A stretch of 41,270 bases of DNA from Azoarcus sp. (lineage in GTDB: Bacteria > Pseudomonadota > Gammaproteobacteria > Burkholderiales > Rhodocyclaceae), in NCBI GenBank assembly GCA_031268195.1, contig JAIRXQ010000042.1, positions 1-41,270 of the forward strand, written 5' to 3'. The notes beneath the pieces were generated by a model. The model did no database searches. It worked only from the letters and a program-made list of their open reading frames with translations, and was not told the origin of the DNA. The translations under genes were made by a program, and so were the position numbers. Of this stretch, positions 17,063-40,938 are shown one piece after another (position 1 is the first letter of the stretch; every line of letters starts with the position of its first letter).

Positions 17063-18877
17063 ATGGCTAATATTTATGGCACCCAGGGCGACGACATACT
17101 GGTTGGCGATGAGGGCGGTGACTATATAGTTGGAGGTCTGCCTAGTCTGCCTATATGGGATGGCCTCGACGTGGGCGACGACAAGCTGTATGGCAACGGC
17201 GGCGACGACTATCTGTATGGCGGCGCTGGCAACGACTATCTGTACGGCGGGGACGGCAACGACACGCTGCATAGCGGCGACGGTGACGACTATCTGGATG
17301 GCGGCAACGGCGACGACATACTGTGGGGCGGCCGCGGCAGCGACAGGCTGTATGGCGGCGACGGCGACGACGGGCTGCATGGCGGCGACGATTCGGGGAA
17401 CGACGGCGGCGACAACTATCTGTATGGCGGCGAAGGCAACGACGGGCTGCGTGGCAGCCACGGCAACGACGAGCTGTATGGCGACGGCGGTGACGACAAT
17501 CTGGCTGGCGGCTACGGTGACGACATACTGTATGGCGGCGACGGCAACGACATACTGAATGGCGATGACGGCAATGACGGTCTGGATGGCGGCGAAGGCG
17601 ACGACATACTGAATGGCGGCTACGGCGACGACTATCTGGCTGGCGGCGAAGGCAACGACTGGCTAGTGGGCGAGGACGGCAACGACACGCTGCTTGGCGG
17701 CGCTGGCAACGACTATCTGTATGGCGAAGAAGGCGACGACGTGCTGTATGGCGGGGACGGCGACGACAGGCTGTATGGCGGCTTTGACAACGACTGGCTG
17801 GATGGCGGCAGCGGCAACGACATACTGGAGGGCGGCAACGGCGACGACGTACTGTATGGCGGGGACGGCGACGACAGGCTGTATGGCTGGGACGGCAACA
17901 ACAAACTGTATGGCGGCAGCGGCGACGATCAACTGAGTAGCAACGACGGCGATGACGTGCTGGATGGCGGAGAAGGCGACGACCATCTGGGTGGCCGCGG
18001 CGGCTACGACACCTATATCTTTGGTCGTGGCGATGGGCGGGACACGGTTACAGACTACGACGGCAGCGGTGCGCTCGAATTCAGGGGGGACATCCAGCCT
18101 TCGGACATCGTGGCCACTCGCGTCGGTGACAATCTGGTGCTGAATTATTCAACAGCGGATAGCGTCACCATCAACTCGTTTTATTCTCAAAGCAATCATC
18201 CCTTCGATACGATCCGTTTTGTCGAGAGCGGCACGGTATGGGATCTGGCGCAAATCAATCATCTGGCCGGTATCGAGCCGGAAACGCCGAATGTGCCGCC
18301 CACGGACGAAATCCCCACGCTTCCCACGCTCACGGGCAGCGAGGGCAACGACACGCTGCGCGGGGGGGACGGCGACGAGCTGCTGCTTGGCGGCGAGGGC
18401 AACGACACCCTCTACGGCGGACTCGGCAACGACTACCTGATTGGCGGCACGGGCGCGGATCGCCTCTACGGCGAGCGGGGCGACGATGTCTATAGCGGCG
18501 GCGAAGGGGATGACTACCTCTACGACAGCGCGGGCAACGAAACCTATTACTTCGCGCGCGGCGATGGCGCTGACACCATTCTCGATACCCAGGGCGAAGA
18601 CAGCCTGATTTTTGAGGGCATCGACTACACGCAACTCTGGTTTCAGCATAGCGGCCCCAGCGGGCGCAGTCTGGAAATCGGCATCATCGGCGCGGAAGAC
18701 CGGGTGACGGTGACGGATTGGTTCGTTTCCGACAGCCGCCAGATCGAGCACATCGAAGCGGGTGGTGCGACGCTGGACGCGGCGGCGGTGACGGGGCTGG
18801 TCGATGCGCTGGCCGGTTTGTCCCCGGACGATGCCTCGTTCGTCGATGTCGTCGGCACTTACTGGGATGTGGTGTAA
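17063..18877 (+). CDS. RTX-type calcium-binding repeat protein, predicted type I secreted
   Basis: A 604-residue protein made almost entirely of glycine- and aspartate-rich nonapeptides of the GGxGxDxLY kind. A block of more than 25 repeats fills residues about 5-310 and a shorter block residues about 425-490. Each repeat block runs into a beta-rich module of the kind following hemolysin-type repeats (GRGDGRDTVTDYDGSGALEF and ARGDGADTILDTQGEDSLIF). No enzyme, adhesin or pore-forming domain is visible. There is no N-terminal signal peptide, which fits type I secretion through a C-terminal signal, but no type I transporter genes are in the window. AAGGAG lies ten bases before the ATG. The DNA itself is repetitive with a 27-base period, so repeat number may vary. 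A terminator follows at 18920. Confidence 0.9.
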   Translation: MANIYGTQGDDILVGDEGGDYIVGGLPSLPIWDGLDVGDDKLYGNGGDDYLYGGAGNDYLYGGDGNDTLHSGDGDDYLDGGNGDDILWGGRGSDRLYGGDGDDGLHGGDDSGNDGGDNYLYGGEGNDGLRGSHGNDELYGDGGDDNLAGGYGDDILYGGDGNDILNGDDGNDGLDGGEGDDILNGGYGDDYLAGGEGNDWLVGEDGNDTLLGGAGNDYLYGEEGDDVLYGGDGDDRLYGGFDNDWLDGGSGNDILEGGNGDDVLYGGDGDDRLYGWDGNNKLYGGSGDDQLSSNDGDDVLDGGEGDDHLGGRGGYDTYIFGRGDGRDTVTDYDGSGALEFRGDIQPSDIVATRVGDNLVLNYSTADSVTINSFYSQSNHPFDTIRFVESGTVWDLAQINHLAGIEPETPNVPPTDEIPTLPTLTGSEGNDTLRGGDGDELLLGGEGNDTLYGGLGNDYLIGGTGADRLYGERGDDVYSGGEGDDYLYDSAGNETYYFARGDGADTILDTQGEDSLIFEGIDYTQLWFQHSGPSGRSLEIGIIGAEDRVTVTDWFVSDSRQIEHIEAGGATLDAAAVTGLVDALAGLSPDDASFVDVVGTYWDVV

Positions 18878-20370: not shown

Positions 20371-20472
20371 GCTGTCTCCTCCTGTGGTTGTAAGGTGCTC
20401 CGCATGGGAGAGCGGCAAAACACCACCCGGCACGGGAGCATGGCGAGCCTAGCATGCCTTACACTCTCGTGC

Positions 20473-21267
20473 ATGCTGGATACGCTTGTTTTTTATCCCT
20501 ACGCTTCCGGTGGTGCGGATACGGTCGTGCCCTTGCCCGCGCGCGGGTTTTTGCTGGCCTTGATCGTGAGCCTGCACGTTGCCGGGGCGATGGCGCTGTG
20601 GCGCGCCGCGGCGCCTGCCGAGCCGGTCGACTCGGGCGCTGTTTTGCGGGTCGATTGGATCGTGCCTGCTGCCGCGCCCGCTGCTTTGCCGTCGCCTGCG
20701 CCGGAAACACGGGCCACCCCCGCCCCTGTCCAGCCGGCGCATCCCGTCCGTGTTCGCACCGAAACCCGGCAAGCCGCGCCAGCGCGCACACCCGTCGTTC
20801 GCGCGGCCGAGACAGTACAATCCATGCCTGTCGCGGCGAATCCCGCGCCCGAAGCGTCCGAGGTGCCCGCATCAGCGGATGTGGCCGCCCCCGCGCTGGC
20901 AGACATCGACATTGCCGCCGCCGTTCGGGATGTCGCGGCGCAAGTACGCGGCGAGGAAGGCGGGGGCGGGGGCGGGGCGAATGACGTCGCCCCCGATTTC
21001 AACGCCAATTACCTCGGCAATCCCGAACCCGAATACCCGGCGCTCTCGATACGTTTGCGCGAGGAAGGCGTGGTAAGACTGCGCGTTTTCGTGACGGTGG
21101 ACGGTCGCGCGGGCGAAGTGAATCTTTACCGGAGCAGCGGTTTCGCGCGGCTCGACAAGACGGCGATCGAGAGTGTGGCGCGCTGGCGCTTCCGTCCGGC
21201 GCAACGGGGTGGCAAGCCGGTTGCCGATTGGGTGGTGGTGCCGGTCAGATTTCATTTGCAGAATTGA
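20473..21267 (+). CDS. tonB: energy transducer TonB
   Basis: Links proton-motive force from ExbB-ExbD to outer-membrane TonB-dependent receptors. The 264-residue form from ATG 20473 has one N-terminal membrane helix (RGFLLALIVSLHVAGAMALW, residues about 24-43) and a Pro/Ala-rich periplasmic spacer (residues about 60-170). A TonB C-terminal domain ends the protein, with the blocks NPEPEYPALSIRLREEGVV and DKTAIESVARWRFRPAQRGG. ATG 20440 is an alternative start with a closer GGGAG ribosome-binding site. exbB follows after 21 bases and exbD after it, confirming the complex. No receptor gene is adjacent, so the transported ligand is unknown. Confidence 0.92.
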   Translation: MLDTLVFYPYASGGADTVVPLPARGFLLALIVSLHVAGAMALWRAAAPAEPVDSGAVLRVDWIVPAAAPAALPSPAPETRATPAPVQPAHPVRVRTETRQAAPARTPVVRAAETVQSMPVAANPAPEASEVPASADVAAPALADIDIAAAVRDVAAQVRGEEGGGGGGANDVAPDFNANYLGNPEPEYPALSIRLREEGVVRLRVFVTVDGRAGEVNLYRSSGFARLDKTAIESVARWRFRPAQRGGKPVADWVVVPVRFHLQN

Positions 21268-21288
21268 TATTGTTTACGGAGTGGATGC

Positions 21289-22071
21289 ATGTTCGAGACT
21301 TCCTCGGTGTTTTCGCATTTTCTGGCCCAGACGGACGTTGTCGGCCTCACCGTACTGACGGTGCTGGCCGCGATGTCGCTCATTTCGTGGTACGTCATCG
21401 CGCTGAAGCTCTGGCGTCACGTGGCGGTGCGGGCACGCAGCAGAGTGTTCCTGTCGTCTTTCGGCGGCATGCGTTCCTGTATCGATGCCGAGCGGCTGCG
21501 CGCGCAAGCGGGCACGGGCGATCCGTTCGCGCGCCTGCTGGACGAAGGGTTGAGGGCCTGCCAGCATGTGCGCGACGCGACGGGGCGCGATGGCGGCCGC
21601 AAGCCGGGCGCCTCGGGTTTTGAGCTGCAATCCCCCGACGATTACGTGAGCGCCGCGCTTGCGCATGGCGTCGCCACCGAAGCGCGGCGGCTCGAAAACG
21701 GCCTCACCGTGCTTGCCTCCATTGCCTCGTCCGCGCCGTTCATCGGGCTGTTCGGCACCGTTTGGGGCATCTTCCACGCCTTGCGCAACATTGCGCTCTC
21801 GGCGCAGGCCAGCCTCGACAAAGTGGCCGGGCCGGTAGGCGAGGCGCTCATCATGACCGCCTGCGGCTTGTTCGTCGCCATTCCCGCCGTGCTCGCCTAC
21901 AACACCTTTGTGCGCATGAACCGCAATCTCATTGGAGAACTGGAAAGTCACGCGCACGCGGTTTTCGGCCTGCTGGGCCTCGGCCAGACGGGCAGCGACG
22001 CCAGCGCCGCGCCCGATGCGCGAGTAGTCGAACTGTCCGCCGCCGTGCCCAAGGCGGAAGGAGCGCGCTGA
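21289..22071 (+). CDS. exbB: MotA/TolQ/ExbB proton channel family protein
   Basis: Inner-membrane proton channel subunit that powers TonB. It has 260 residues, with a first helix (TVLTVLAAMSLISWYVIALK) and the characteristic pair later: SAPFIGLFGTVWGIFHALRN near residue 145-165 and VGEALIMTACGLFVAIPAVL near residue 183-202. Both are highly typical of ExbB/TolQ. A cytoplasmic stretch of about 90 residues separates helix one from the pair, with a Gly/Arg-rich insert near residue 100. It sits between tonB and exbD; exbD starts three bases after its stop. Confidence 0.93.
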   Translation: MFETSSVFSHFLAQTDVVGLTVLTVLAAMSLISWYVIALKLWRHVAVRARSRVFLSSFGGMRSCIDAERLRAQAGTGDPFARLLDEGLRACQHVRDATGRDGGRKPGASGFELQSPDDYVSAALAHGVATEARRLENGLTVLASIASSAPFIGLFGTVWGIFHALRNIALSAQASLDKVAGPVGEALIMTACGLFVAIPAVLAYNTFVRMNRNLIGELESHAHAVFGLLGLGQTGSDASAAPDARVVELSAAVPKAEGAR

Positions 22072-22074
22072 AAC

Positions 22075-22497
22075 ATGGCTTTTCATCCGCAAAACTCGCA
22101 GCGCTCGGTGATGGCGGAAATCAACATGATTCCGTTCATCGACGTGATGCTGGTGCTGCTCATCATCTTCATCATTGCCGCGCCCTTGCTGACCCACGCG
22201 GTCAAGGTCGATTTGCCGCGCGCCGACAGCGTCCCCGCGAGCATGAAGCCGGACACGATCCAGCTCGGCATCAAGGCCGACGGCGTTCTGCTCTGGAACG
22301 GCGAAGCCATAACCGAGACGGAAATGGCCGCGCGCATGCGCACTGCCGCCGCGCTGACGCCGCCGCCGGAGCTGCACATCCAGGCCGACGCCGCGACGCC
22401 CTATGAGGCATTGGCGCGTGTCATGGCCAGCGCCTCGCGCCTTGGGCTGGAAAAAATCGGCTTCGTCAGCCGCCCGGAGAATGCCGCGCAGCCTTGA
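22075..22497 (+). CDS. exbD: ExbD/TolR family biopolymer transport protein
   Basis: Partner of ExbB in the TonB motor. It has 140 residues with a single membrane helix carrying the essential aspartate in the motif MIPFIDVMLVLLIIFII (residues about 17-33). The periplasmic domain contains VKVDLPRADS and a typical C-terminal EALARVMASASRLGLEKIGF. It closes the tonB-exbB-exbD operon and converges with the TIMP-like gene 23 bases away. Confidence 0.95.
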   Translation: MAFHPQNSQRSVMAEINMIPFIDVMLVLLIIFIIAAPLLTHAVKVDLPRADSVPASMKPDTIQLGIKADGVLLWNGEAITETEMAARMRTAAALTPPPELHIQADAATPYEALARVMASASRLGLEKIGFVSRPENAAQP

Positions 22498-22520: not shown

Positions 22521-22958
22521 TCAGAAATCCGTTCTTGATTCCTGTGAAGAATCCAGGCTGCGGCGGCGCGCTTTGCCGTGCCGCTTCAACCATTTGAGCC
22601 GCTCGCCTGCATTTGATTTCTGAAGATTTCCCCAACATCTGTAAGTATTCAGCTTGCCCTGGTCGTCGAATTTCAGATACAAAAGAAAGCCTTTTCCTTC
22701 TTGCAGACGGTACTCACAATTGTCGAGGCTGGACGTGTCAATATCGACCGTTTTTGTCAGGCTGGATTTCCATGTGCGGTCGACCTCCGCATGTGCCCGA
22801 AAAAGACCTTCGGGCAACACATCGACCGTTTTGATACGGACAAGCGCCACGACATCGGCATTAGCGTAAGCATGCTGCGCCCCCGGCTCGCTGCACCGGC
22901 ATGCGAATGCGCTATTTGCGAACAAGGCCATGAAAATCAGGGAAAAAAGGAATTTCAC
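22521..22958 (-). CDS. secreted TIMP/netrin (NTR)-like domain protein, putative metalloprotease inhibitor
   Basis: A 145-residue exported protein starting at GTG 22958. The signal peptide MKFLFSLIFMALFANSAFA is followed immediately by CRC, so after cleavage the mature N-terminus would be Cys-x-Cys, the arrangement by which TIMPs chelate the metalloprotease zinc. Next comes a YANADVVALVRI strand, like the ADVV block of TIMPs. A DNCEYRLQEGKGFLLYL segment matches the C-G-x-x-F-x-x-G-x-x-YL pattern of NTR domains, and YRCWGNL carries the fourth cysteine, allowing the two classic disulfides. A basic tail follows. It starts three bases after the stop of a small HExxH protein, suggesting a protease-inhibitor pair. 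Fold likely; inhibitor role inferred. Confidence 0.7.
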   Translation of the reverse strand: MKFLFSLIFMALFANSAFACRCSEPGAQHAYANADVVALVRIKTVDVLPEGLFRAHAEVDRTWKSSLTKTVDIDTSSLDNCEYRLQEGKGFLLYLKFDDQGKLNTYRCWGNLQKSNAGERLKWLKRHGKARRRSLDSSQESRTDF

Positions 22959-22961
22959 GTT

Positions 22962-23171
22962 TCAACCATTGCGGTGATTGCTTGTGGCGTATGGCCCCAT
23001 CAGGCCAAGAATCATGGGGTCGTGCATTCCCGGGAGATTGCATTTCAATAACGTGTCCTCGGCCTGGGTGGATGGATATCCCGGCGCACCACCTACATGC
23101 GCCAGTTCGTGCACCAGCGTCGCGATGACCGTCCAGCGATCATATTCGCTCCAATGCACCGCCTGTTTCAC
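22962..23171 (-). CDS. small HExxH zincin-motif protein (minimal or truncated)
   Basis: A 69-residue frame starting at GTG 23171, which overlaps the mltB stop by four bases (GTGA). The centre reads WTVIATLVHELAHVGGAPG: a helix with the zinc-binding HExxH motif followed by two glycines, then QAEDTLLKCNLPGMHDP, which offers a further acidic ligand. This looks like the C-terminal core of a zinc metallopeptidase or toxin domain. It is short for a zincin, and the reading frame stays open upstream into the mltB tail (QKHETAQPVKQAVHWSEYDR), so it may be a truncated remnant. Its coupling to mltB and to the TIMP-like gene suggests translation. Proteolytic activity is not shown. Confidence 0.5.
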   Translation of the reverse strand: MKQAVHWSEYDRWTVIATLVHELAHVGGAPGYPSTQAEDTLLKCNLPGMHDPMILGLMGPYATSNHRNG

Positions 23172-24316
23172 CGGTTGCGCCGTTTCGTGTTTCTGACGGC
23201 TTGTTTTTTGCCCGGTTTCATCTTTTTTGTTTTGACTGCTTTGCCGTGTTTGTGCGCTGGGGCATGGGAGTGTTTGTCCAGCTCGACGTATTGCGGCGGC
23301 GCGAGCGGATTGTCACGGCCTTCGCGCAGCGCCTGCGCGAGCTGGAAGACCGCCATCGCGTAGAAGTAGCTGTGGTTGTAGCGTGTGATGGCGTAGAAGT
23401 TGCGATAGCCCAGCCAGTATTGCGTGGCTTCGTCCGGGGTTTCGAGGTCGATCAGCAAAGCCGCTTCGTCGGGGAAGGTATTGGCTGCCGGGCGAATGCC
23501 GGAAGCGGCGATGCGTGCTCTATCCAGCGTCGGCTCGAAGCCCGTGGCGACGAGCGGTGCGGGATCGGCTCCCGGGTCGAGGCGCGCGCGCAGCGCGACC
23601 GGGCCGCCGCTCACCCAGCCGAATTCGCGCAGGTAATTGGCGATGCTGCCGATTGCGTCGATGGGATGGGTATCGAAGTCGATACGGCCGTCGCCGTCGA
23701 AATCGACTGCGTAGCGCCGCACGCTGCTGGGCAGAAACTGTGGCCAGCCGAGCGCCCCGGCGAAAGAGCCGGAGTAGCTGGCGGGGTCGCGCCCCTGTTC
23801 GCGCGCGAGCAGAAAGAGCGCTTCGAGTTCCCCCCGGAACAGGTCGGCGCGCGGTGGGTAGTCGAAGGCGAGCGTGGCAAGTGCCGAGAGCGTCTCGAAG
23901 TTGCCCGTGTTGCGGCCGTAGATGGTTTCCACGCCGAGGATGCCGAGGATGATTTCCGCGGGTACGCCGTATTGCCGTTCAGCGCGGTTCAGCGCGTCCT
24001 CGTACTGTGCCCAGGCTTGCAGACCGGCGTCGATGTGCAGGCGGTCCAGGAAGCGGGAGCGGTAGCGCCGCCAGGATTTGGTGGTGCGCTTCGCGGGCGG
24101 GCGGATGAGGTCGACGACGCGCGGGTTGTAGTTGGCGCGCGCCAGCGCGACATAGATCTGCGCGGTATCGAGCTTGTTGCGCGCGGCGATTGTTTCGACG
24201 AAGGCGGCGACCTCCGGGTGTGTCGTGTAGTCGGCGCGCGCGGGCAGGGTGCACAGGATGGCGGCCGCAAAGACGGCGGCCAGACGGAAAAATGCAGCGG
24301 GAAACGTTGATTTCAT
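23168..24316 (-). CDS. mltB: lytic murein transglycosylase B (MltB-type)
   Basis: Cleaves the peptidoglycan glycan strand, forming 1,6-anhydromuramyl ends. The frame is open from 24910, but that extension is antisense to the transglutaminase gene. The start at ATG 24316 gives 382 residues with a signal peptide ending LPARA. The catalytic glutamate lies in GILGVETIYGRNTGNFETL, followed by the family blocks SGSFAGALGWPQFLPSS and DGDGRIDFDTHPIDAIGSIA, and the late ITRYNHSYFYAMAVFQLA. The C-terminus (from about residue 350) is a Lys/His-rich tail that overlaps the next gene's start and may be altered by recombination there. Confidence 0.93.
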   Translation of the reverse strand: MKSTFPAAFFRLAAVFAAAILCTLPARADYTTHPEVAAFVETIAARNKLDTAQIYVALARANYNPRVVDLIRPPAKRTTKSWRRYRSRFLDRLHIDAGLQAWAQYEDALNRAERQYGVPAEIILGILGVETIYGRNTGNFETLSALATLAFDYPPRADLFRGELEALFLLAREQGRDPASYSGSFAGALGWPQFLPSSVRRYAVDFDGDGRIDFDTHPIDAIGSIANYLREFGWVSGGPVALRARLDPGADPAPLVATGFEPTLDRARIAASGIRPAANTFPDEAALLIDLETPDEATQYWLGYRNFYAITRYNHSYFYAMAVFQLAQALREGRDNPLAPPQYVELDKHSHAPAHKHGKAVKTKKMKPGKKQAVRNTKRRNR

Positions 24317-24336
24317 GGCGGAGTCGGCGCTTCTTT

Positions 24337-26310
24337 TTAGATGTCGAGGGCATTGATGTCGCGCGCGAGTTCTCGAATCGCCTCGCCTGAGACAGGCGGA
24401 CGATAACGCAAACGGGCATAGCGGGTACAGACTCCGTTCAATGTATCGGCATCGGCGGGGCGGGCGGCAGCGAGCCTTCGCCCGTAGTCGAGCGGGCCTT
24501 CGGCGGGTTTGCGCGCCAGATCGAAGCGGGCGAGATACGCCGAAAAACGGCCCCAGGCGCGCGCGAGCGGGTCGCGCGGATCGCGGCTGCGCAGCGCCCA
24601 GTAATAAAAGGCGGCCAGCATCAGCGCGGCGCCGATGGCGATCGCGCCCAGCAGGCGGACGGAGTCGATGGCGCCGAAGCCGAACGATTCCAGCAGGTCG
24701 TGCTGCCGCCGGTTGTCGTAGGCGGTGATACGGTTCCACCGTGTGCCGAGCGCTTCCCAGCGGTCGCGCCATTGCCGCAGCCATGAGTATTCCGGGCGCA
24801 GCATGAAGGGCAGTCCGTCGCGGAGCGAGTCCGCAAGGCCGCCCTCGATGCGCAGCGGTGCGACGATCGCGGTTGGATCGACCCGCACCCAGCCGCGTTC
24901 GGCCAGCCACACTTCCGCCCAGGCGTGCGCATCCGATTGGCGCACCATCAACATCTTGTTGATCGGGTTGAGATAGCCGCCCTGATAGCCGGTGACGACC
25001 CGCGCGGGCACGTCGGCGGCGCGGGCAAGGAAAACGAACGCGCCCGCGAAGTGCTCGCAGAAACCCCGGCGCGCGTCGAACAGAAAATAGTCGACGCTAT
25101 CTTGAGTCATGAGCGGCGGTTGCAGGGTGTAGGCAAAGCCGCCGTCCACGAACCAGTCGAGGATGCGTTCCACCGTATGCGCCGGAGTGCCCGCTTTCAG
25201 TTCGCGCGCCAGCACCCGCGCTTTGGCGTTGCCGTGATTGGGCAACTGGAGCGCCTGCTGCACCACCCACGGCCTCTCGTTGCGTCCGACCACCGTATCG
25301 GGATAGGCGCTGAAATCGATGCGCACGCGCACGCCCACCGGCGAGCGGCTCAAGGTCTGGTAATCATAGGCGAAACGCACCCCCGGCACCGGCCCGGCGG
25401 GGTAGTAGAGCGCGGGCAGCCAGTGCTGGTTGTGGGGTTCGAGCATGATCCGATAGTCGTAGCGGCGGCCGGACGGCGTGTAAGTGGGACGATCCGAGGT
25501 TGGGCGCGGCGCCAGATGCCAGCTGAAACCGTCGAAACGGGTCAGCACCGGACCGCGCCAGTAGCGATTGGAAGGCGGCGGGCGCGGGCCGTCGAATTCG
25601 ACGGTGAAGGCGAGTTCGTCCGACAGAATCATCTCGCTGATCGAGCCCGGCGCCATCGAATCGGACAGTCCCGTCGAAGCGGTGGATTCTTCCGGGATGC
25701 CCCACAATGGCGAGACGGCGCGGGGAAAGAGGACGAACAGCAGCAGCATGAGCGGCGCGCCTTGTGCGAGCAGGAGCGCGCTCGTGCGCAGGCGCTCGCG
25801 GCCGCTGGAGGCCGGATCGAGCAGCGAGATTTGCCCGCCGAGCGTGAGCGTGGCGGCCACGAGCGCGAGCAGGGCGGCGGGCGCGGACTGGTTGCTGAAG
25901 AACATGCCGAACTGGAGAAAGAAACACAGCAGCACGACGACGTGGATGTCGCGCATGTTGCGAATCTCCAGCATCTTCAGGCACAAAAGCACGGCCAGCA
26001 GCGCTAGCCCCGGCGTTTTGCCCAGAAAATGCCCGAAGGTGATCCTGACGGCGAGGGCGGCGGCAAGCGCGAGCGGCAGCAGCAGCCAGCGCGGCGGCGC
26101 GCTCTGGCCGTGCCACAACCGCCAGCCGCGCCAGGCAAGCAGCGTGGCGCACAGGATGATCGTCCATGCGGGTAGATTCAGCAGGTGTGGCGCGAGCGTG
26201 GTGGCTGCCGCCGCCAGCAGCCATGCGCCCTGATCCGGGTGCAGGGCGGCTTCGCCGGAAACGGTTTGCCCGCGTGCCGAAAAGCGAACGAGGCGCGTGG
26301 TTGCGTTCAC
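24337..26310 (-). CDS. TgpA-type membrane transglutaminase (DUF3488 plus transglutaminase-like)
   Basis: Inner-membrane protein of 657 residues. The N-terminal third has several hydrophobic helices (DUF3488 region). A periplasmic transglutaminase core follows with the catalytic triad visible: Cys in RRGFCEHFAGAFVFLAR near residue 410, His in SDAHAWAEVWL and Asp in GWVRVDPTA. One more membrane helix and a cytoplasmic tail complete it. This matches TgpA of Pseudomonas, whose periplasmic domain has transglutaminase activity. It starts with GTG overlapping the stop of the DUF58 gene by four bases. The moxR-DUF58-tgpA order is a widespread cassette. Confidence 0.9.
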   Translation of the reverse strand: MNATTRLVRFSARGQTVSGEAALHPDQGAWLLAAAATTLAPHLLNLPAWTIILCATLLAWRGWRLWHGQSAPPRWLLLPLALAAALAVRITFGHFLGKTPGLALLAVLLCLKMLEIRNMRDIHVVVLLCFFLQFGMFFSNQSAPAALLALVAATLTLGGQISLLDPASSGRERLRTSALLLAQGAPLMLLLFVLFPRAVSPLWGIPEESTASTGLSDSMAPGSISEMILSDELAFTVEFDGPRPPPSNRYWRGPVLTRFDGFSWHLAPRPTSDRPTYTPSGRRYDYRIMLEPHNQHWLPALYYPAGPVPGVRFAYDYQTLSRSPVGVRVRIDFSAYPDTVVGRNERPWVVQQALQLPNHGNAKARVLARELKAGTPAHTVERILDWFVDGGFAYTLQPPLMTQDSVDYFLFDARRGFCEHFAGAFVFLARAADVPARVVTGYQGGYLNPINKMLMVRQSDAHAWAEVWLAERGWVRVDPTAIVAPLRIEGGLADSLRDGLPFMLRPEYSWLRQWRDRWEALGTRWNRITAYDNRRQHDLLESFGFGAIDSVRLLGAIAIGAALMLAAFYYWALRSRDPRDPLARAWGRFSAYLARFDLARKPAEGPLDYGRRLAAARPADADTLNGVCTRYARLRYRPPVSGEAIRELARDINALDI

Positions 26311-27317
26311 GTCGTGTCCTGCTGTCGCCCGAGGCCAAACAAGGCGAGTGCGCCGAGGCAGCGGGACAGATGCACGTCGCCGCGCCCGATGGAAAATTCG
26401 CAGGCGGGCAAGCGCAGGGCGTAGCGTTGCCCCGCCCGTTCAGCGCGCAGCAGCCAGGTGCACAGGACCGACAGGCGCGCTTCGTCGGAGAGCGCGGGCG
26501 GCAGGGCGTTCCAGTCCAGAAACAGGTCGCCGCCTTCGCTGGCCGAGAACTGCTTGGTCATCATTTCGCCGCCGCGCGCAATGACCTTCCACGCCAGATG
26601 GCGAGGTGAATCCGTGATTTGCCAGGCGCGCAGCCCGGTGAAATCTTCGTTTCCGGCCTGGAGCGACGCGCCGGAGGCGGCAGCGCTGCCCGCGCCGGAC
26701 GGTGGCGGCGGCGGATCGGCGGCGGGCGCGGGAAAGACGAGCGCCGTCATGTCTGGCACAAATACGCTCCAGGCGCGGATGAAACCGAGCGGCCAGCGCG
26801 TCTCGATGATCGTGCGGCCCAGTGGCAAGATGCCCCGTCGCGTCGTGCTCAGGGCGATGGCGACTTCGCCGCACGCGGCAGGCGGCAGATCGAACCATGC
26901 CTCGCCGCGCGCATCGGGATCGTCGCCCGCGATCATGTGCAGGGCGGCGCGGCGGCGCGAAGACGGGTTATCGATCAGCAGATGAAAAACCACGCTGCCG
27001 CCGCAAAACGTCGGCTCCGCCTTGCCGTAACGGATCATCAGATGCAAGAGATCGCGAAAGGCGTGAATCAGGCTGGCGGCAGCCGTACTCGCGAGCAGGA
27101 ACACGAAGGCATAGCCCAGGCCGAGCCCGTAGTTGATCGACGCGACCAGCATCACCACGAGCACGGCGGCGAACGCCAGCCCCGTCAGCGTGGGCATGAC
27201 GTAGATGCGGTTCTGCGTCAGCCGCACCGGGGCGCGGGCGGGCGTCCGCTCCCATTGCCACCAGAGGATGAAACGCAGAAAAGGAAACTGGCGGACGAGT
27301 GCGTCGGAGAAGGTCAT
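26307..27317 (-). CDS. DUF58 domain-containing protein
   Basis: A 336-residue protein with two adjacent membrane helices near residues 40-85 (MPTLTGLAFAAVLVVMLVAS and LGYAFVFLLASTAAASLIHA). The DUF58 signature comes later, around residues 228-265 (DFTGLRAWQITDSPRHLAWK, then ARGGEMMTKQF). DUF58 proteins have a degenerate von Willebrand A-like domain and work with MoxR ATPases in a chaperone-like role that is not settled. Here it lies between moxR (15-base gap) and tgpA (four-base overlap), as expected. A poly-proline linker sits near residue 200. Confidence 0.9.
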   Translation of the reverse strand: MTFSDALVRQFPFLRFILWWQWERTPARAPVRLTQNRIYVMPTLTGLAFAAVLVVMLVASINYGLGLGYAFVFLLASTAAASLIHAFRDLLHLMIRYGKAEPTFCGGSVVFHLLIDNPSSRRRAALHMIAGDDPDARGEAWFDLPPAACGEVAIALSTTRRGILPLGRTIIETRWPLGFIRAWSVFVPDMTALVFPAPAADPPPPPSGAGSAAASGASLQAGNEDFTGLRAWQITDSPRHLAWKVIARGGEMMTKQFSASEGGDLFLDWNALPPALSDEARLSVLCTWLLRAERAGQRYALRLPACEFSIGRGDVHLSRCLGALALFGLGRQQDTT

Positions 27318-27332
27318 CTGCCTTGTGCCGCT

Positions 27333-28250
27333 TCAGGGAAGCGCGATGCCTTGCAGCAATCGCGCGAGATCGTTCGTATCTGGCATGCGCCCGTCGCTGG
27401 CCCGGTGCAAGCGGTGCCCGGCGACGTAGGGAAAAATGCGCTGCACATCCTCCGGCAGCGCATGATCGCGCCCTTCGATCAGCGCCCAGGCGCGCGCGGC
27501 GGCCAGCAGCCCCATGCCTGCGCGTGGACTGAGCCCCGCGACGAATTCCGCGCCTTGTCGGGTGGCGGCGAGAAGCGCTTGCACATAATCGACGAGGTGC
27601 TCTGCGACGATCACCGCGCGCGCCTCATCCTGCAAATCGAGCAGATCCATGGGCGAGATGACTGGCTCGACGCCGATGAGCATTTCGCGCCGATCGCCGC
27701 CTTGCAGCAGTTCGCGCTCGGCGGCGCGGTCGGGATAGCCGAGGCGGATGCGCATCAAAAAGCGGTCGAGCTGGCTCTCCGGCAACGGGAAAGTGCCGAT
27801 CTGGTAAGACGGGTTCTGGGTGGCGATGACGAAAAACGGTTCAGGCAGCGGCAGGGTGTGGCCATCGACCGTGACCTGATGCTCCTCCATTGCTTCGAGC
27901 AGCGCGCTTTGGGTTTTGGGCGTGCCGCGATTGATTTCGTCCGCGAGGATCAATTGCGTAAACACCGGTCCGGGCAAAAAGCGAAAAGCCACGCTTTCGC
28001 GCTCGAACACCGACACCCCCACGATGTCGGCGGGCAGCAGGTCGCTGGTAAACTGAATGCGCTGGTATTGCAGTCCCAGCAGTTGCGCCAGCGTGTGCGA
28101 GAGCGTGGTTTTGCCGGTGCCGGGCACATCCTCGATCAGCAAATGCCCGCGGGCGAGCAGGCATGACAGGGCGATGCGCAGTTCATGTTCCTTGCCGAGG
28201 ATGATCTCGCCGGCGGCTGCCATGAGGCGTTCGATGTTGGAGTTCGCCAT
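27333..28250 (-). CDS. MoxR-family AAA+ ATPase
   Basis: Cytoplasmic AAA+ ATPase of 305 residues. Walker A is in EDVPGTGKTTLSH near residue 40, Walker B and the sensor region are LILADEINRGTPKTQSALLE near residue 103, and ATQNPSYQIGTFPLPESQLD carries sensor 1. The C-terminal lid contains GLSPRAGMGLLAAARAWAL. MoxR proteins are thought to insert cofactors or remodel complexes together with DUF58/vWA partners, and the next gene is DUF58. It is the first gene of the minus-strand run that ends with the TIMP-like gene. Confidence 0.92.
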   Translation of the reverse strand: MANSNIERLMAAAGEIILGKEHELRIALSCLLARGHLLIEDVPGTGKTTLSHTLAQLLGLQYQRIQFTSDLLPADIVGVSVFERESVAFRFLPGPVFTQLILADEINRGTPKTQSALLEAMEEHQVTVDGHTLPLPEPFFVIATQNPSYQIGTFPLPESQLDRFLMRIRLGYPDRAAERELLQGGDRREMLIGVEPVISPMDLLDLQDEARAVIVAEHLVDYVQALLAATRQGAEFVAGLSPRAGMGLLAAARAWALIEGRDHALPEDVQRIFPYVAGHRLHRASDGRMPDTNDLARLLQGIALP

Positions 28251-36995: not shown

Positions 36996-37152
36996 TGATG
37001 CGCCGAGGCGGATAGCGCAAAGCGCCTTTTTCCTCGCCGCGTCAGCGGCGGGGCTTGTGTAGCCGCAATCGCAATTTGCGATGCACCGACCGGGGTGCGC
37101 GTATTCGGGGGGGTGCGCAGTACCTTGCGGCCATCACTCCCGGAGTTACGCC

Positions 37153-40100
37153 ATGGGTTTCAGTGCAGGACAACTTGCCTCGGCTTCGCTGATCAGCCAG
37201 ATCGGCGGCGGGGTGCCATCGCTCTACGCCCAAGGTGCTTCGATCATGGGCGAGAAGGTGGATGCCGACACCGCGCCGCAATGGAAAAAAGACCTTGCCA
37301 TTCTGGGCGGCGCGGGGGTGACCGCCGTCACGGAAAAGTATGCGCTGGACAAGGTGCTCGGCCCGCTGGCAAAGCCGCTGAAGAATGCCATCGGCAGCGG
37401 GCTGGCGCGCATCGGTATTGCAGCAGCGGCGGAAGGGGGCCAGGAAATCGCCGAAAATCTGCTGCATGACGCGCTGAGGATCGGTCTGACGAATCCGGAA
37501 GCGGAATTTGACCTGCGCGGCACGGCATATGAGGGGGGGGTTGGCGCTGCTGTGGGCGGTATCGTCCGTACGGCCGTCGAAACCGCGCTCGGCATCCGCA
37601 ACCGGGCGGCACGCGCGCAGCAAAGCGCCGAATCGCTCGGCCAGTTGTTTGAGCTGGCGAAGGCAAGCAAGGTGCTGCAACGCTCGCCGGAGACGTTCGA
37701 GGGCTTTATCGCGGATGTGTCGCGGGACTTCCCCGTCGATCAGGTCTACATCGATGCGAATGAGTTCCTGCAAATGCCGGTCTCCCCGGCGATCATCGAG
37801 GCATCCCCGGCAGTGGCCACGCAGATCGAGCAGGCGGCAGGGACAGGCGGCGCGGTGTCGATCCCCGTGGAGGAGCTGCTGAGCCGCATTGCGCCCGTGG
37901 AAGGGTCGGAGGCGCTGATCGATCATCTGCGCACCGAGGCAGATGGGATGAGCCGCGCCGAGGCGGTGGAATTTTTCCAGTCCCCCGAAGGCAGTAAATT
38001 ACGCGAGGAGCTGGAGCGCGCCGTGTCCCGGCAGGTAAACCCGGACGCTTTCACGGCGCAAGTGGATGCCATTGGCGCGGAGATCGCCGCCGAACTCGAC
38101 CAGACGGGCCGATTCACGAAGGAGGCGAACCGCGCCTACAGCAGCCTCGTTTCGGCGTGGTACGGCGTGACCGCCGAGCGGTTGGGCATCACGCCGACAA
38201 CGTTACGGGAGCGGTTCCGGCTGAACGTCGTTACGGATCAGGCGCGGGGCGAATTTGAACAGGCGCTGGCCTCGCAGCCCCCCAAGGGCTGGCGGCATGC
38301 CACGACCGGCGAGGACGCGGCGGCGCTCTACGAGGGGCGCGATACGGGCGAGGCGGTTTTCTTCACGGACTTGCAGGGCAAGCTTGCGCAGGACGCGCCG
38401 GAGTTGGCGGGGTTTTCGCATTCCATCAACAGACAAGCGGCAGACCATATTCGCAAGAATCACGGCGACGCCAAGGCGGAAGCCTTGCGGGGGCAAGCCG
38501 CCATTACTGGAAAGGATATTGCCCGCATCCCGGAAATCGTGACGCAGTACGATGGAATGCGGATCGTGACAGACTGGAAAGGCGATACGCTCATCGCCTA
38601 CGCCAAGCGTTTCGATGATGGCGTAACAGTCTATCTGGAGGGTATGACAAGGCGACGCAGCAACCTGCGTGGCGTAAGTATGCGCAGGTATCTCACGTCA
38701 TCCGATGCAGATACCATCCTGGACAGGGCAGTACGCGACGAAATCAACGTCCAGAACGAACGGAGCATCCCTGCGCATGAGCAAAGTCTAGACGATACCG
38801 GCGATGAGTTCAACCAACCCTCGCTCGGCGGCTTCAGCCCCGAAACAAATACCATCAGGCTGTCCGATAACGCAAACCTATCAACCTTCCTGCACGAATC
38901 CGGGCATTTCTTTCTGCATGCGCAAGGGGCGCTGGCCTCGGAGCTGCGCGCCCGCGATCCGGCCACGCTCAACGAGGGAGAGCGGCAGATGATCGCAGAC
39001 ATGGACGCCGTGCTCGAATGGTACGGCGTGCGCGATCAGCAGACGTGGGACAGCATGAGCATGGACGAGCAGCGCCCGTACCATGAGCAGTTCGCGCGCG
39101 GCTTTGAGAAGTACTTGTTTTCCGGGCAGGCGCCAAGCCTGAAGATGCAGAGCTTGTTCCAGCGCTTCGCCTCGTGGCTACGGTCGATCTACAGGAAGAT
39201 TGCGGCGTTTGACGATGTGAAGCTCACGCCAGAAGTGCGCGGGGTGATGGATCGCATGCTGGCGAGTGATGCGGAGATCGAGCGGGCGCGGCAGGCGAGA
39301 AGCATGTTCCCGCTGTTCGAGAGCGAGGCGGCGGCGCGCGCGGCGGGGGTGACGCCGGAGGAGCTGGAAGCGTTCTGGCAAGATGGACGGGAGCAGATCG
39401 CGGACGCGCAGCAGGAATTGCAGGCAAAGAGCCTGCGCGATATGCAGTGGCTGCAAGCCGCGCGCGGGCGGGAGATATCCCGGCTGAAACGCGAGCATCG
39501 GGCACAGCGCGCGGAGGTGCGCGCGGAGGTCGAAGCGCAGGTCATGGCGCAGCCGATTTATCGGGCATGGCGTTTCCTGCGCGACGGCGAGATGGAGCAG
39601 GATGGGGAAACTATCAAGGCGACAGACGGGCATCGCCTCAATATGGACATGCTCCGGGAGATGTACCCGGCGGGCGAACTGGCCGGAATCGACATCGCGC
39701 CGCTCGTCCGGCGCAAGCTGGCGGGCAAGGACGGTATGCCGCCGGATGTGGCGGCGGACATTTTCGGGTTTTCGTCCGGCGACGAGCTGGTGCGGACGCT
39801 GCTCTCGACCGATCCGCCGAAGACGGTCATCGACGCCATGACCGACCAGCGCATGCTGGAGCGCCATGGCGAGCTGGCGACGCCCGAGGCCATCGAGCGC
39901 GCGGCGGATGCGGCGATCCACAACGCGGCCAGAATCCGCTTCGCGACGCGGGAGGCGAACGCGCTGGCTCGCGCGGTGGGCAAGCCACGGCTGTTGATCG
40001 AGGCGGTGCGGGAGTTTGCGGCTCGGGCCATTGGCGGCGTGCAGATACGGGCGCTGTCACCAAACCAGTATGCACGCGCGGAAACACGCGCGGCGCGGGC

Positions 40101-40938
40101 GGCGGAGCAGGCGAGAAAGAAGGGCGACATGGCGGCGGCGGCGCAGGAGAAGAGGAACGAGGCGCTGAACGCGCAGCTGGCGCGGGAGGCGTACCGGGCG
40201 CAGGATGAAGTGCGCATCGGGCTGGCCTATCTGCGCCGCTTCAATGGCGACAAAGCGGGCAAGCGGATCGGCGCTGACTATCTCGATCAGATTCATGGGT
40301 TGCTGGAACGGTTCGATTTGCGGGCGATCAGCAACCGGCAGGCGGCGCGGCGTGAGTCACTCGCCGCATGGGTGGAAAAACAGCGTTCGGAGGGGATCGA
40401 GCCGGATTTGCCGGAGCATATCGCCAACGAGGCGGTACGCGTCCCGTACAAGAATCTGTCCGTCGAAGATTTCCGGGGCTTGGTAGACAGCGTCCGGCAG
40501 GTCGCGCATCTGGGGCAACTCAAGAACCGCCTGCTGACAGCCAAAAAGAACCGGGAGTTCGCGGCGGCGAGGGACGAGATCGTCGCCAGTATCGTGGAGA
40601 ATTCACGCGGCGAGCGGGAGCCGCAACGCTCCGCCGCCAACCGTTCGGAAAGAATGCGCCATTTCGTCAAGGGGTTTCTTGCCGCCCACATCAAGGCGGC
40701 ATCCCTGGCGCGCGTCATGGACGGCGGCCGTGACGGCGGTGTGTTTTGGGAGTACTTCATCCGCCCGGCGAACGCGGCCGGGGACACGGAGACAGGTATA
40801 AGGCAGGTCGCGGGTATCGTGGATCAGTTCCGCCGCGCCACACACAGGACATTTCATGGTCATAATTCCTTGAAGGACACGATCAGCGCGTCATCGATGA
40901 CCGTCAGCTTCAGGTACACGTCTTGCCATACCGTGTGA
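37153..40938 (+). CDS. large phage polyvalent protein with PBECR-like nuclease and HExxH zincin modules (3' end rearranged)
   Basis: A 1261-codon frame from ATG 37153, with GGAG seven bases upstream. It is phage-like, of the multi-domain polyvalent type injected with DNA. Residues about 1-150 are Gly/Ala-rich with EGGQEIAENLLHDALR, resembling an internal segment of longer proteins. Residues about 380-535 resemble a PBECR (Barnase/EndoU/ColicinE5/RelE-like) nuclease domain: ADHIRKNHGD, TGKDIARIPEIV, VTVYLEGMTRRRSNL. Near residue 580 is a metallopeptidase motif, STFLHESGHFFLHAQG. A coiled-coil, charge-rich region (residues about 740-830) and a helical C-terminal half with FIRPANAAGD follow. Homologous sequence seems to end near 40795; the last 48 codons are antisense to mqsA/mqsR. 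Domain names come from remembered motifs. Confidence 0.7.
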   Translation: MGFSAGQLASASLISQIGGGVPSLYAQGASIMGEKVDADTAPQWKKDLAILGGAGVTAVTEKYALDKVLGPLAKPLKNAIGSGLARIGIAAAAEGGQEIAENLLHDALRIGLTNPEAEFDLRGTAYEGGVGAAVGGIVRTAVETALGIRNRAARAQQSAESLGQLFELAKASKVLQRSPETFEGFIADVSRDFPVDQVYIDANEFLQMPVSPAIIEASPAVATQIEQAAGTGGAVSIPVEELLSRIAPVEGSEALIDHLRTEADGMSRAEAVEFFQSPEGSKLREELERAVSRQVNPDAFTAQVDAIGAEIAAELDQTGRFTKEANRAYSSLVSAWYGVTAERLGITPTTLRERFRLNVVTDQARGEFEQALASQPPKGWRHATTGEDAAALYEGRDTGEAVFFTDLQGKLAQDAPELAGFSHSINRQAADHIRKNHGDAKAEALRGQAAITGKDIARIPEIVTQYDGMRIVTDWKGDTLIAYAKRFDDGVTVYLEGMTRRRSNLRGVSMRRYLTSSDADTILDRAVRDEINVQNERSIPAHEQSLDDTGDEFNQPSLGGFSPETNTIRLSDNANLSTFLHESGHFFLHAQGALASELRARDPATLNEGERQMIADMDAVLEWYGVRDQQTWDSMSMDEQRPYHEQFARGFEKYLFSGQAPSLKMQSLFQRFASWLRSIYRKIAAFDDVKLTPEVRGVMDRMLASDAEIERARQARSMFPLFESEAAARAAGVTPEELEAFWQDGREQIADAQQELQAKSLRDMQWLQAARGREISRLKREHRAQRAEVRAEVEAQVMAQPIYRAWRFLRDGEMEQDGETIKATDGHRLNMDMLREMYPAGELAGIDIAPLVRRKLAGKDGMPPDVAADIFGFSSGDELVRTLLSTDPPKTVIDAMTDQRMLERHGELATPEAIERAADAAIHNAARIRFATREANALARAVGKPRLLIEAVREFAARAIGGVQIRALSPNQYARAETRAARAAEQARKKGDMAAAAQEKRNEALNAQLAREAYRAQDEVRIGLAYLRRFNGDKAGKRIGADYLDQIHGLLERFDLRAISNRQAARRESLAAWVEKQRSEGIEPDLPEHIANEAVRVPYKNLSVEDFRGLVDSVRQVAHLGQLKNRLLTAKKNREFAAARDEIVASIVENSRGEREPQRSAANRSERMRHFVKGFLAAHIKAASLARVMDGGRDGGVFWEYFIRPANAAGDTETGIRQVAGIVDQFRRATHRTFHGHNSLKDTISASSMTVSFRYTSCHTV
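40795..40863 (-). pseudogene. mqsA: truncated MqsA antitoxin (N-terminal stub)
   Basis: The ATG at 40863 overlaps the mqsR stop, as in intact mqsRA operons. The first residues MTMKCPVCGAAELIHDTRDL match the zinc-binding N-terminus of MqsA. After LPYT the match stops near 40795, where the sequence becomes antisense to the polyvalent-protein gene. The second CxxC zinc pair, the linker and the DNA-binding domain are lost. The ORF runs on to 40603 as unrelated sequence. Confidence 0.8.

Follow-up and report, generated by a model that had tools for sequence, protein, structure and literature searches.

The described system that comes closest in function to the locus studied here, on the parts of PMC6899460 that we draw on, is the VgrG2b/PA0261 pair of Pseudomonas aeruginosa. 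The C-terminal metallopeptidase of VgrG2b is an HExxH domain that is toxic in the periplasm but not in the cytoplasm, and the neighboring immunity gene PA0261 encodes a protein with a signal peptide, dependent on the disulfide system, that neutralizes VgrG2b by complex formation; delivery is by the T6SS (PMC6899460). An HExxH motif and a neighboring immunity gene with a signal peptide are what this system shares with ours; on the reading favored below, toxicity confined to the periplasm, a disulfide-dependent immunity protein, T6SS delivery, and neutralization in a complex would be shared as well. The VgrG2b enzyme, however, forms the C terminus of a VgrG spike, whereas the zincin here is a free protein of ~160 amino acids. 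A search of solved structures with our zincin profile gave no match to the VgrG2b chain, and PA0261 is described in those parts of PMC6899460 with no mention of TIMP or NTR. Small HExxH domains proposed as toxins are also found among polymorphic toxins (Tox-MPTase1-5), with one suggested user of the T6SS (PMC3482391). These domains end RHS-type proteins, whereas the zincin here stands alone, a distinction drawn from their descriptions in sections of PMC3482391 in which the terms TIMP, netrin, and NTR are absent. Within the excerpts used, PMC9846239 lists further T6SS metallopeptidases, PMC12494544 deals with a muramidase effector (the term TIMP has one count in this paper), and PMC9409782 has bacteria only in a reference title. 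In the open-access literature (a scope that leaves subscription papers and preprints outside and that relies on term counts in PMC11148199 and PMC3482391), no paper joined the T6SS or immunity proteins with TIMP/netrin-like inhibitors. Effector-immunity pairs and zincin toxin domains are known; the enzyme family appears to be undescribed, and its partner would be a TIMP-like antidote.

The window (the whole stretch of 41,270 nucleotides from Azoarcus sp. analyzed here, contig JAIRXQ010000042.1) carries the two frames of interest next to a lytic transglycosylase gene:

22962..23171, minus strand: C-terminal remnant (69 codons) of a zincin gene, with a GTG start overlapping the mltB stop
23088..23111, minus strand: HELAHVGG motif, from the translation of the zincin remnant
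22521..22958, minus strand: TIMP-like secreted inhibitor, putative immunity protein of 145 amino acids, intact frame, recognized by profile match
22902..22958, minus strand: predicted signal peptide of the inhibitor, residues 1 to 19, ending in SAFA (hydropathy maximum 2.65, followed by CRC)
22893..22901, minus strand: Cys-Arg-Cys, predicted mature N terminus of the inhibitor, residues 20 to 22, invariant in 15 aligned sequences
23168..24910, minus strand: mltB lytic transglycosylase frame, a neighbor outside the module (PF13406, E 1.2e-91)

An earlier, sequence-only reading of this locus had described a small HELAHVGG frame, translationally coupled to a secreted inhibitor and attached to a cell-wall enzyme operon. 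The geometry is as described: the GTG of the zincin remnant sits on the mltB stop as GTGA (23168 being the last position of mltB), and the GTG of the inhibitor lies 3 bases past the stop of the 69-amino-acid frame. Translational coupling within the window is unsupported, however, since no Shine-Dalgarno-like run was seen by eye before either GTG. That the remnant overlaps the stop codon of mltB seems to be a chance by-product of the truncation. The attachment to a cell-wall enzyme operon finds no support either, as relatives of the pair lie between nuoI and nuoJ, beside a phosphomannomutase gene, or behind T6SS genes; a link with mltB was not seen at the other loci with identified neighbors. 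The HExxH motif by itself is weak evidence because it occurs four times in the window among stop-free frames of at least 50 amino acids.

Several other genes lie in the window. A tonB-exbB-exbD-like set (20395-22497, plus strand; PF03544, PF01618, and PF02472) is convergent with the inhibitor gene, with 23 bases between them. The minus-strand stretch upstream of mltB (24337-28250) holds a TgpA-type transglutaminase (24337-26310) and a MoxR-type AAA ATPase (27333-28250). On the plus strand are an RTX repeat protein of 604 amino acids with 14 HemolysinCabind stretches (17063-18877) and a 1,285-amino-acid protein with a PBECR3 nuclease-like domain (37081-40938; PF18812, E 8.5e-14). The latter had no further Pfam match at E 0.001 and is possibly a second toxin in the window.

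Is the 69-amino-acid frame a true relative of zincins? The genome of the window (2.53 Mb, 87 contigs) contains a full-length zincin paralogue of 162 amino acids (C70:18819-19304), and the frame is 61% identical to it over 52 residues (E 3.6e-15), a match that identifies the frame as a true zincin relative. The frame aligns only to residues ∼103 to 157 of this paralogue and to positions 104 to 152 of the 160-position zincin family profile (E 7.3e-17), and two profiles, run with filters off, detected no N-terminal part in the window. The frame is thus the C-terminal third of a zincin of ~160 residues, and its catalytic domain is incomplete. The intact small metalloprotease suggested by the sequence-only reading is rejected on this coverage, whereas the longer homologues that it had left to be looked for do exist, in the same genome and elsewhere.

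In 21 aligned intact zincins, the HELAH motif, F57, L60, D72, G123, and A131 are invariant, and E132 and C138 are nearly so; second zincin copies, which lie outside this alignment, read HEFAH or HEMGH. Searches of Pfam with the 21 members gave nothing better than E 0.025, NCBIfam gave no match at its cut-off, and PHROG matches were limited to 2 of the 21 members (best E 0.00038), in families to which no function is assigned. Scores for membership in the eCIS or aKG-HExxH families were below cut-off. The zincin matches no curated family and would appear to be an undescribed enzyme family. A phage or plasmid source was also considered and rejected, as there was no match (one full-length zincin against phages, two against plasmids), and of 299 viral stretches with a match to the zincin pattern, none was confirmed. 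Positions 29 to 89 of profile A3 matched the pilin PilA5 (8qqj; E 0.0087), probably by chance because they lie outside the HExxH part. One sequence (G084) was left out as a zincin given its E value of 0.0096, 27% identity, and internal stop.

The zincin and inhibitor genes recur together as a module. At C70, the genes for the zincin and for a second secreted Cys-Arg-Cys inhibitor overlap by four bases, and this pair sits between nuoI and nuoJ, as do the pairs of two genus-mates (G019 and G007; nuo genes recognized by likeness). The pair is also present, at a different place, in a genome from another family of the order (G096). A further genus-mate (G009) retains the first ~48 zincin residues beside a phosphomannomutase-type gene, and the inhibitor frame after them is again intact. 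The nuoI-nuoJ interval is a repeated site (L002, L007, L008, L040, and L043), with the pair in three genomes and the inhibitor alone in two. When GTDB contigs were searched with a zincin profile built from four sequences, 19 loci were recovered, distributed over Pseudomonadota, Acidobacteriota, and Planctomycetota, and at 11 of them (ten in Pseudomonadota, one in Acidobacteriota) the inhibitor lies immediately downstream on the same strand. Adding the C70 and G096 zincins, a remote copy in G178 (L034), and four second copies from genomes already represented to these loci, which include G019 and G007, gives 26 intact zincins. An inhibitor directly downstream on the same strand accompanies 13 of these 26 and both truncated zincins, with intergenic distances in the 13 pairs of −8 (an overlap) to 90 bases; weak inhibitor matches in G038 and G114 (E about 1e-4) were dropped. 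The sequence-only reading had asked whether the two genes co-occur in other genomes or whether the HExxH frame is a piece of a decayed gene without such co-occurrence. A decayed piece it is in this window, but the co-occurrence is there.

The zincin is rare: in the order it occurs in 3 of 399 genomes, the window's own included, and in the class of G496 in 1 of 385, which is G496 itself. Distances among zincins correlate with distances among their inhibitors in the 13 full pairs to which the test was restricted (Mantel r 0.55, p 1e-4), a correlation for which shared species descent alone could also be sufficient.

The inhibitor frame of the window has a hydrophobic leader, the junction SAFA/CRC, an ADVV stretch, and four cysteines in the mature part. 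It is 44% identical to the inhibitor of the C70 paralogue (E 1.6e-25) and matches the inhibitor profile at E 4.8e-47, a value to be read in light of the window sequence itself being in the profile. The Cys-Arg-Cys and the other two cysteines are kept in all 15 aligned inhibitors (window included), each of which has A or G directly before the CRC; in the 13 paired ones this point lies 19 to 25 residues in. Signal peptides were assigned by hydropathy, and cleavage sites were predicted by eye. The aligned inhibitors carry a leader up to the Cys-Arg-Cys, whereas the zincins are mostly without one. Hydropathy maxima over the first 40 residues ranged from 1.68 to 3.04 in inhibitors and from −0.04 to 2.82 in zincins, and they were below 2 in 20 of 21 zincins versus 2 of 15 inhibitors; this is a clear shift but not a clean split, as the ranges overlap. 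Because the residues before the first cysteine are, by eye, mostly unlike a lipobox, cleavage by signal peptidase I and a free N-terminal cysteine are expected. The arginine after the first cysteine is not universal, given that divergent orphan inhibitors read CVC (L043), CSC (L045), and CDCIC (L044) and that an intermediate protein (L053) reads CTC.

The inhibitor resembles TIMP and the NTR domain (PF00965) in its Cys-x-Cys mature N terminus directly after the signal peptide and in its target class. It differs from TIMP in being shorter, bacterial, and paired with the gene of its presumed target, and in having only two cysteines after Cys3, where TIMP carries a larger set. The window inhibitor matched the Pfam TIMP model at E 0.015 and 15.5 bits, under the cut-off of 23.1, and matches in 3 of the 15 inhibitor members were likewise below it (best E 0.0036); no cut-off was reached in NCBIfam. 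In solved structures, the best matches of the inhibitor profile were to TIMP-1 (E 0.09 and 0.14), which accounted for 9 of 13 matches at E 1, with alignments that start at the mature Cys1 and cover the first ∼48 residues. The Pfam TIMP model had no match in the window's genome at E 0.01 and exceeded its cut-off in only 1 of 398 whole genomes, in a single protein (L053:1396-1845) that scored 24.5 bits versus 23.1. In a search of 213 frames, our inhibitor profile also matched this protein along 106 positions, part of the leader among them, at E 2.3e-12. These data suggest that the inhibitor family likely belongs to the TIMP/NTR superfamily, via the bacterial intermediate L053. The TIMP/netrin-like identity proposed from the sequence is probable by way of L053; the direct comparison with the TIMP profile falls short of the cut-off.

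Not all zincins travel with an inhibitor: 13 of the 26 intact ones have no such gene. Six of them form a supported inhibitor-less clade (L028, from a planctomycete, L068, L022, L024, L065, and L066), and in its four Roseibium members (L022, L024, L065, and L066) the zincin is kept in one place adjoining ssb and uvrA, which makes a resident gene likelier than a cassette. This clade is left unexplained by an effector-immunity reading. At L027 (5185-5841, plus strand), in turn, the zincin groups with paired zincins (support 84/86), and downstream of it lies an unrelated protein, perhaps secreted and with no match in Pfam, possibly a replacement antidote.

Which member of the pair was lost can be followed in the genus of the window. 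Among its 21 genomes (our own plus 20), the inhibitor was found in 9 at E 0.001 and an intact zincin in 3 by a profile search of all 21; six had an inhibitor without an intact zincin, and none had a zincin without an inhibitor. Five genomes have the inhibitor and no zincin (G001, G006, G008, G012, and G018), and G009 has the inhibitor with a zincin fragment. Single absences carry little weight, as several of these genomes are incomplete assemblies. The inhibitors of G001, G006, and G012 are divergent, and the orphans of G008 and G012 lie between nuoI and nuoJ (G008 neighbors checked with Pfam). The G008 orphan differs from the paired G019 inhibitor by dN 0.17 and dS 0.64, and two paired inhibitors differ by 0.25 and 0.70, simple counts in a set where several other comparisons were saturated; this similarity argues that the orphan is still selected. 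An antidote kept after the weapon is lost is the behavior expected of an immunity gene, and orphan immunity genes are a known outcome of effector-immunity evolution. We consider it probable that the window, too, holds an orphan antidote, with an intact immunity gene beside a dead effector stump.

We then asked about the T6SS, with the sheath gene PF05943 as its marker. The sheath gene was present in 25 of 28 genomes with a zincin or an inhibitor; for intact zincins the count was 20 of 22, and outside the genus of the window 16 of 18 zincin genomes had it (G178 left out). Background frequencies were 17/79 in the order outside the genus (16/78 without G096), 21/150 in the order of G496, and 19/149 in the phylum of G485; pooled without G096 and the two centres, they amounted to 54/375 genomes. 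The comparison of 16/18 with 54/375 gave a crude Fisher p of 2.5e-11, for a single marker gene, with no control for genome size, and with the background genomes in the G496 order and the G485 phylum searched for zincins only in part. Stratified by Burkholderiales, Alphaproteobacteria (one row per genus, with four Roseibium-type rows reduced to one), and Acidobacteriota, and leaving out two gammaproteobacterial and two planctomycete genomes, the test gave a p of 7e-6; the background includes no sample of Gammaproteobacteria or Planctomycetota, and Hyphomicrobiales stand for all Alphaproteobacteria. The sheath gene was not found in two zincin genomes (G482 and G483).

Within the genus of the window the T6SS is common (16 of 20 mates), and in the window's own genome a single contig carries tssB, -C, -F, -K, -L, and -M. 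In Kumtagia (Mesorhizobium) ephedrae (L030), tssF, tssG, a ClpB-type ATPase gene (ClpV by its position), the zincin, and the inhibitor follow one another on one strand, and the sheath gene lies 7.5 kb upstream. This is the one of the 19 GTDB zincin loci that T6SS genes adjoin; at the other 18, BLAST with three T6SS stretches found no T6SS genes. PAAR/VgrG patterns were also absent at those 18 loci, though the patterns were equally silent on known T6SS stretches.

These observations, namely, the pair with its constant order and strand, its spread, the truncation in the window, the co-occurrence with the T6SS, and the one locus behind T6SS genes, are computed directly. From them we infer enzymatic activity, toxicity, delivery, binding mode, compartment, and fold, in part by analogy. 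The explanation that we favor, with a probability of about 0.6, is that the frames in the window are the remains of a mobile effector-immunity pair, probably T6SS borne, with a TIMP-like periplasmic antidote. Of the two ideas in the sequence-only reading, a metalloprotease-inhibitor pair or a toxin-immunity pair, the latter is the better one, and the module recurs. The intact module would consist of an HExxH zinc enzyme of ~160 residues without a signal peptide, made in the cytoplasm and presumably injected by the T6SS into the periplasm of neighbors, and of a TIMP-like protein, encoded directly downstream, that would be exported and remain in the periplasm of the cell that makes it. Keeping the enzyme in the cytoplasm and exporting its inhibitor is a sensible arrangement if other cells receive the enzyme in their periplasm by injection. 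The module in the window has lost the N-terminal two thirds of the enzyme gene, with the immunity gene left intact.

How might the antidote work? In animal TIMPs, the amino group and the carbonyl of Cys1 bind the zinc, and residue 2 enters S1′. The bacterial inhibitor may block its enzyme in like manner, with the Cys-Arg-Cys of its free N terminus placed on the zinc: Cys1 would bind the metal through its free amino group and its carbonyl, and residue 2, which is Arg in each of the 15 aligned sequences, would enter S1′. The best argument from sequence for a TIMP-type mechanism is the conservation at the cleavage site, for which an ordinary exported protein has no need. We put forward this more specific proposal, a TIMP-type inhibitor with its free N-terminal cysteine on the zinc and Arg in S1′ as the immunity protein of stand-alone T6SS zinc-protease effectors, only tentatively and at somewhat less than even odds.

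Other explanations have to be weighed against this one. The pair could be an effector-immunity or regulatory pair with no tie to the T6SS, whose zincin exits through lysis or some other pathway, or works on envelope proteins within its own cell under the restraint of the exported inhibitor. That 18 of the 19 GTDB loci showed no neighboring T6SS genes in the searches made would fit such a pair, as would the two zincin genomes without the sheath marker and the inhibitor-less clade that keeps one housekeeping place in Roseibium. Given the co-occurrence with the T6SS (16/18 versus 54/375) and the pair directly behind tssF, tssG, and the ATPase gene, we regard it as unlikely. Also unlikely, in our estimate, is a stand-alone role in which the inhibitor defends the periplasm against foreign zincins that rivals inject or gut neighbors secrete and the zincin is a frequent passenger rather than a cognate partner. 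Five genus-mates in which we found the inhibitor and no zincin, two of them with divergent copies (L044 and L045), are consistent with this role, and so is the selection that still acts on the G008 orphan. What argues against it is that the inhibitor follows a zincin, or a fragment of one, at 15 places spread over distant taxa, with constant order and strand, and orphan immunity genes are themselves familiar from effector-immunity evolution.

Finally, the secreted Cys-x-Cys protein might not be an inhibitor but a periplasmic protein that serves a different function and accompanies the zincin, its TIMP likeness being convergent. The direct TIMP matches, none of them significant (E 0.015 for the window, 0.0036 as the best of 15, and 0.09 to 0.14 for structures), leave room for this view. 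It is nevertheless very improbable to us because L053 matches on both sides (24.5 bits versus 23.1; E 2.3e-12), the alignments to TIMP-1 begin exactly at the mature Cys1, and the HExxH motif of the partner is that of the TIMP target class.

If the effector-immunity reading with a TIMP-like antidote is true, a principle of protease inhibition known from animals would serve as an antidote in bacterial warfare, and a role could be assigned to one group, at least, of the TIMP-like proteins of bacteria. The zincins would represent an undescribed family of metallo-effectors with a predictable mechanism of immunity. On the same reading, the window itself shows an antidote that was kept after the weapon was lost.
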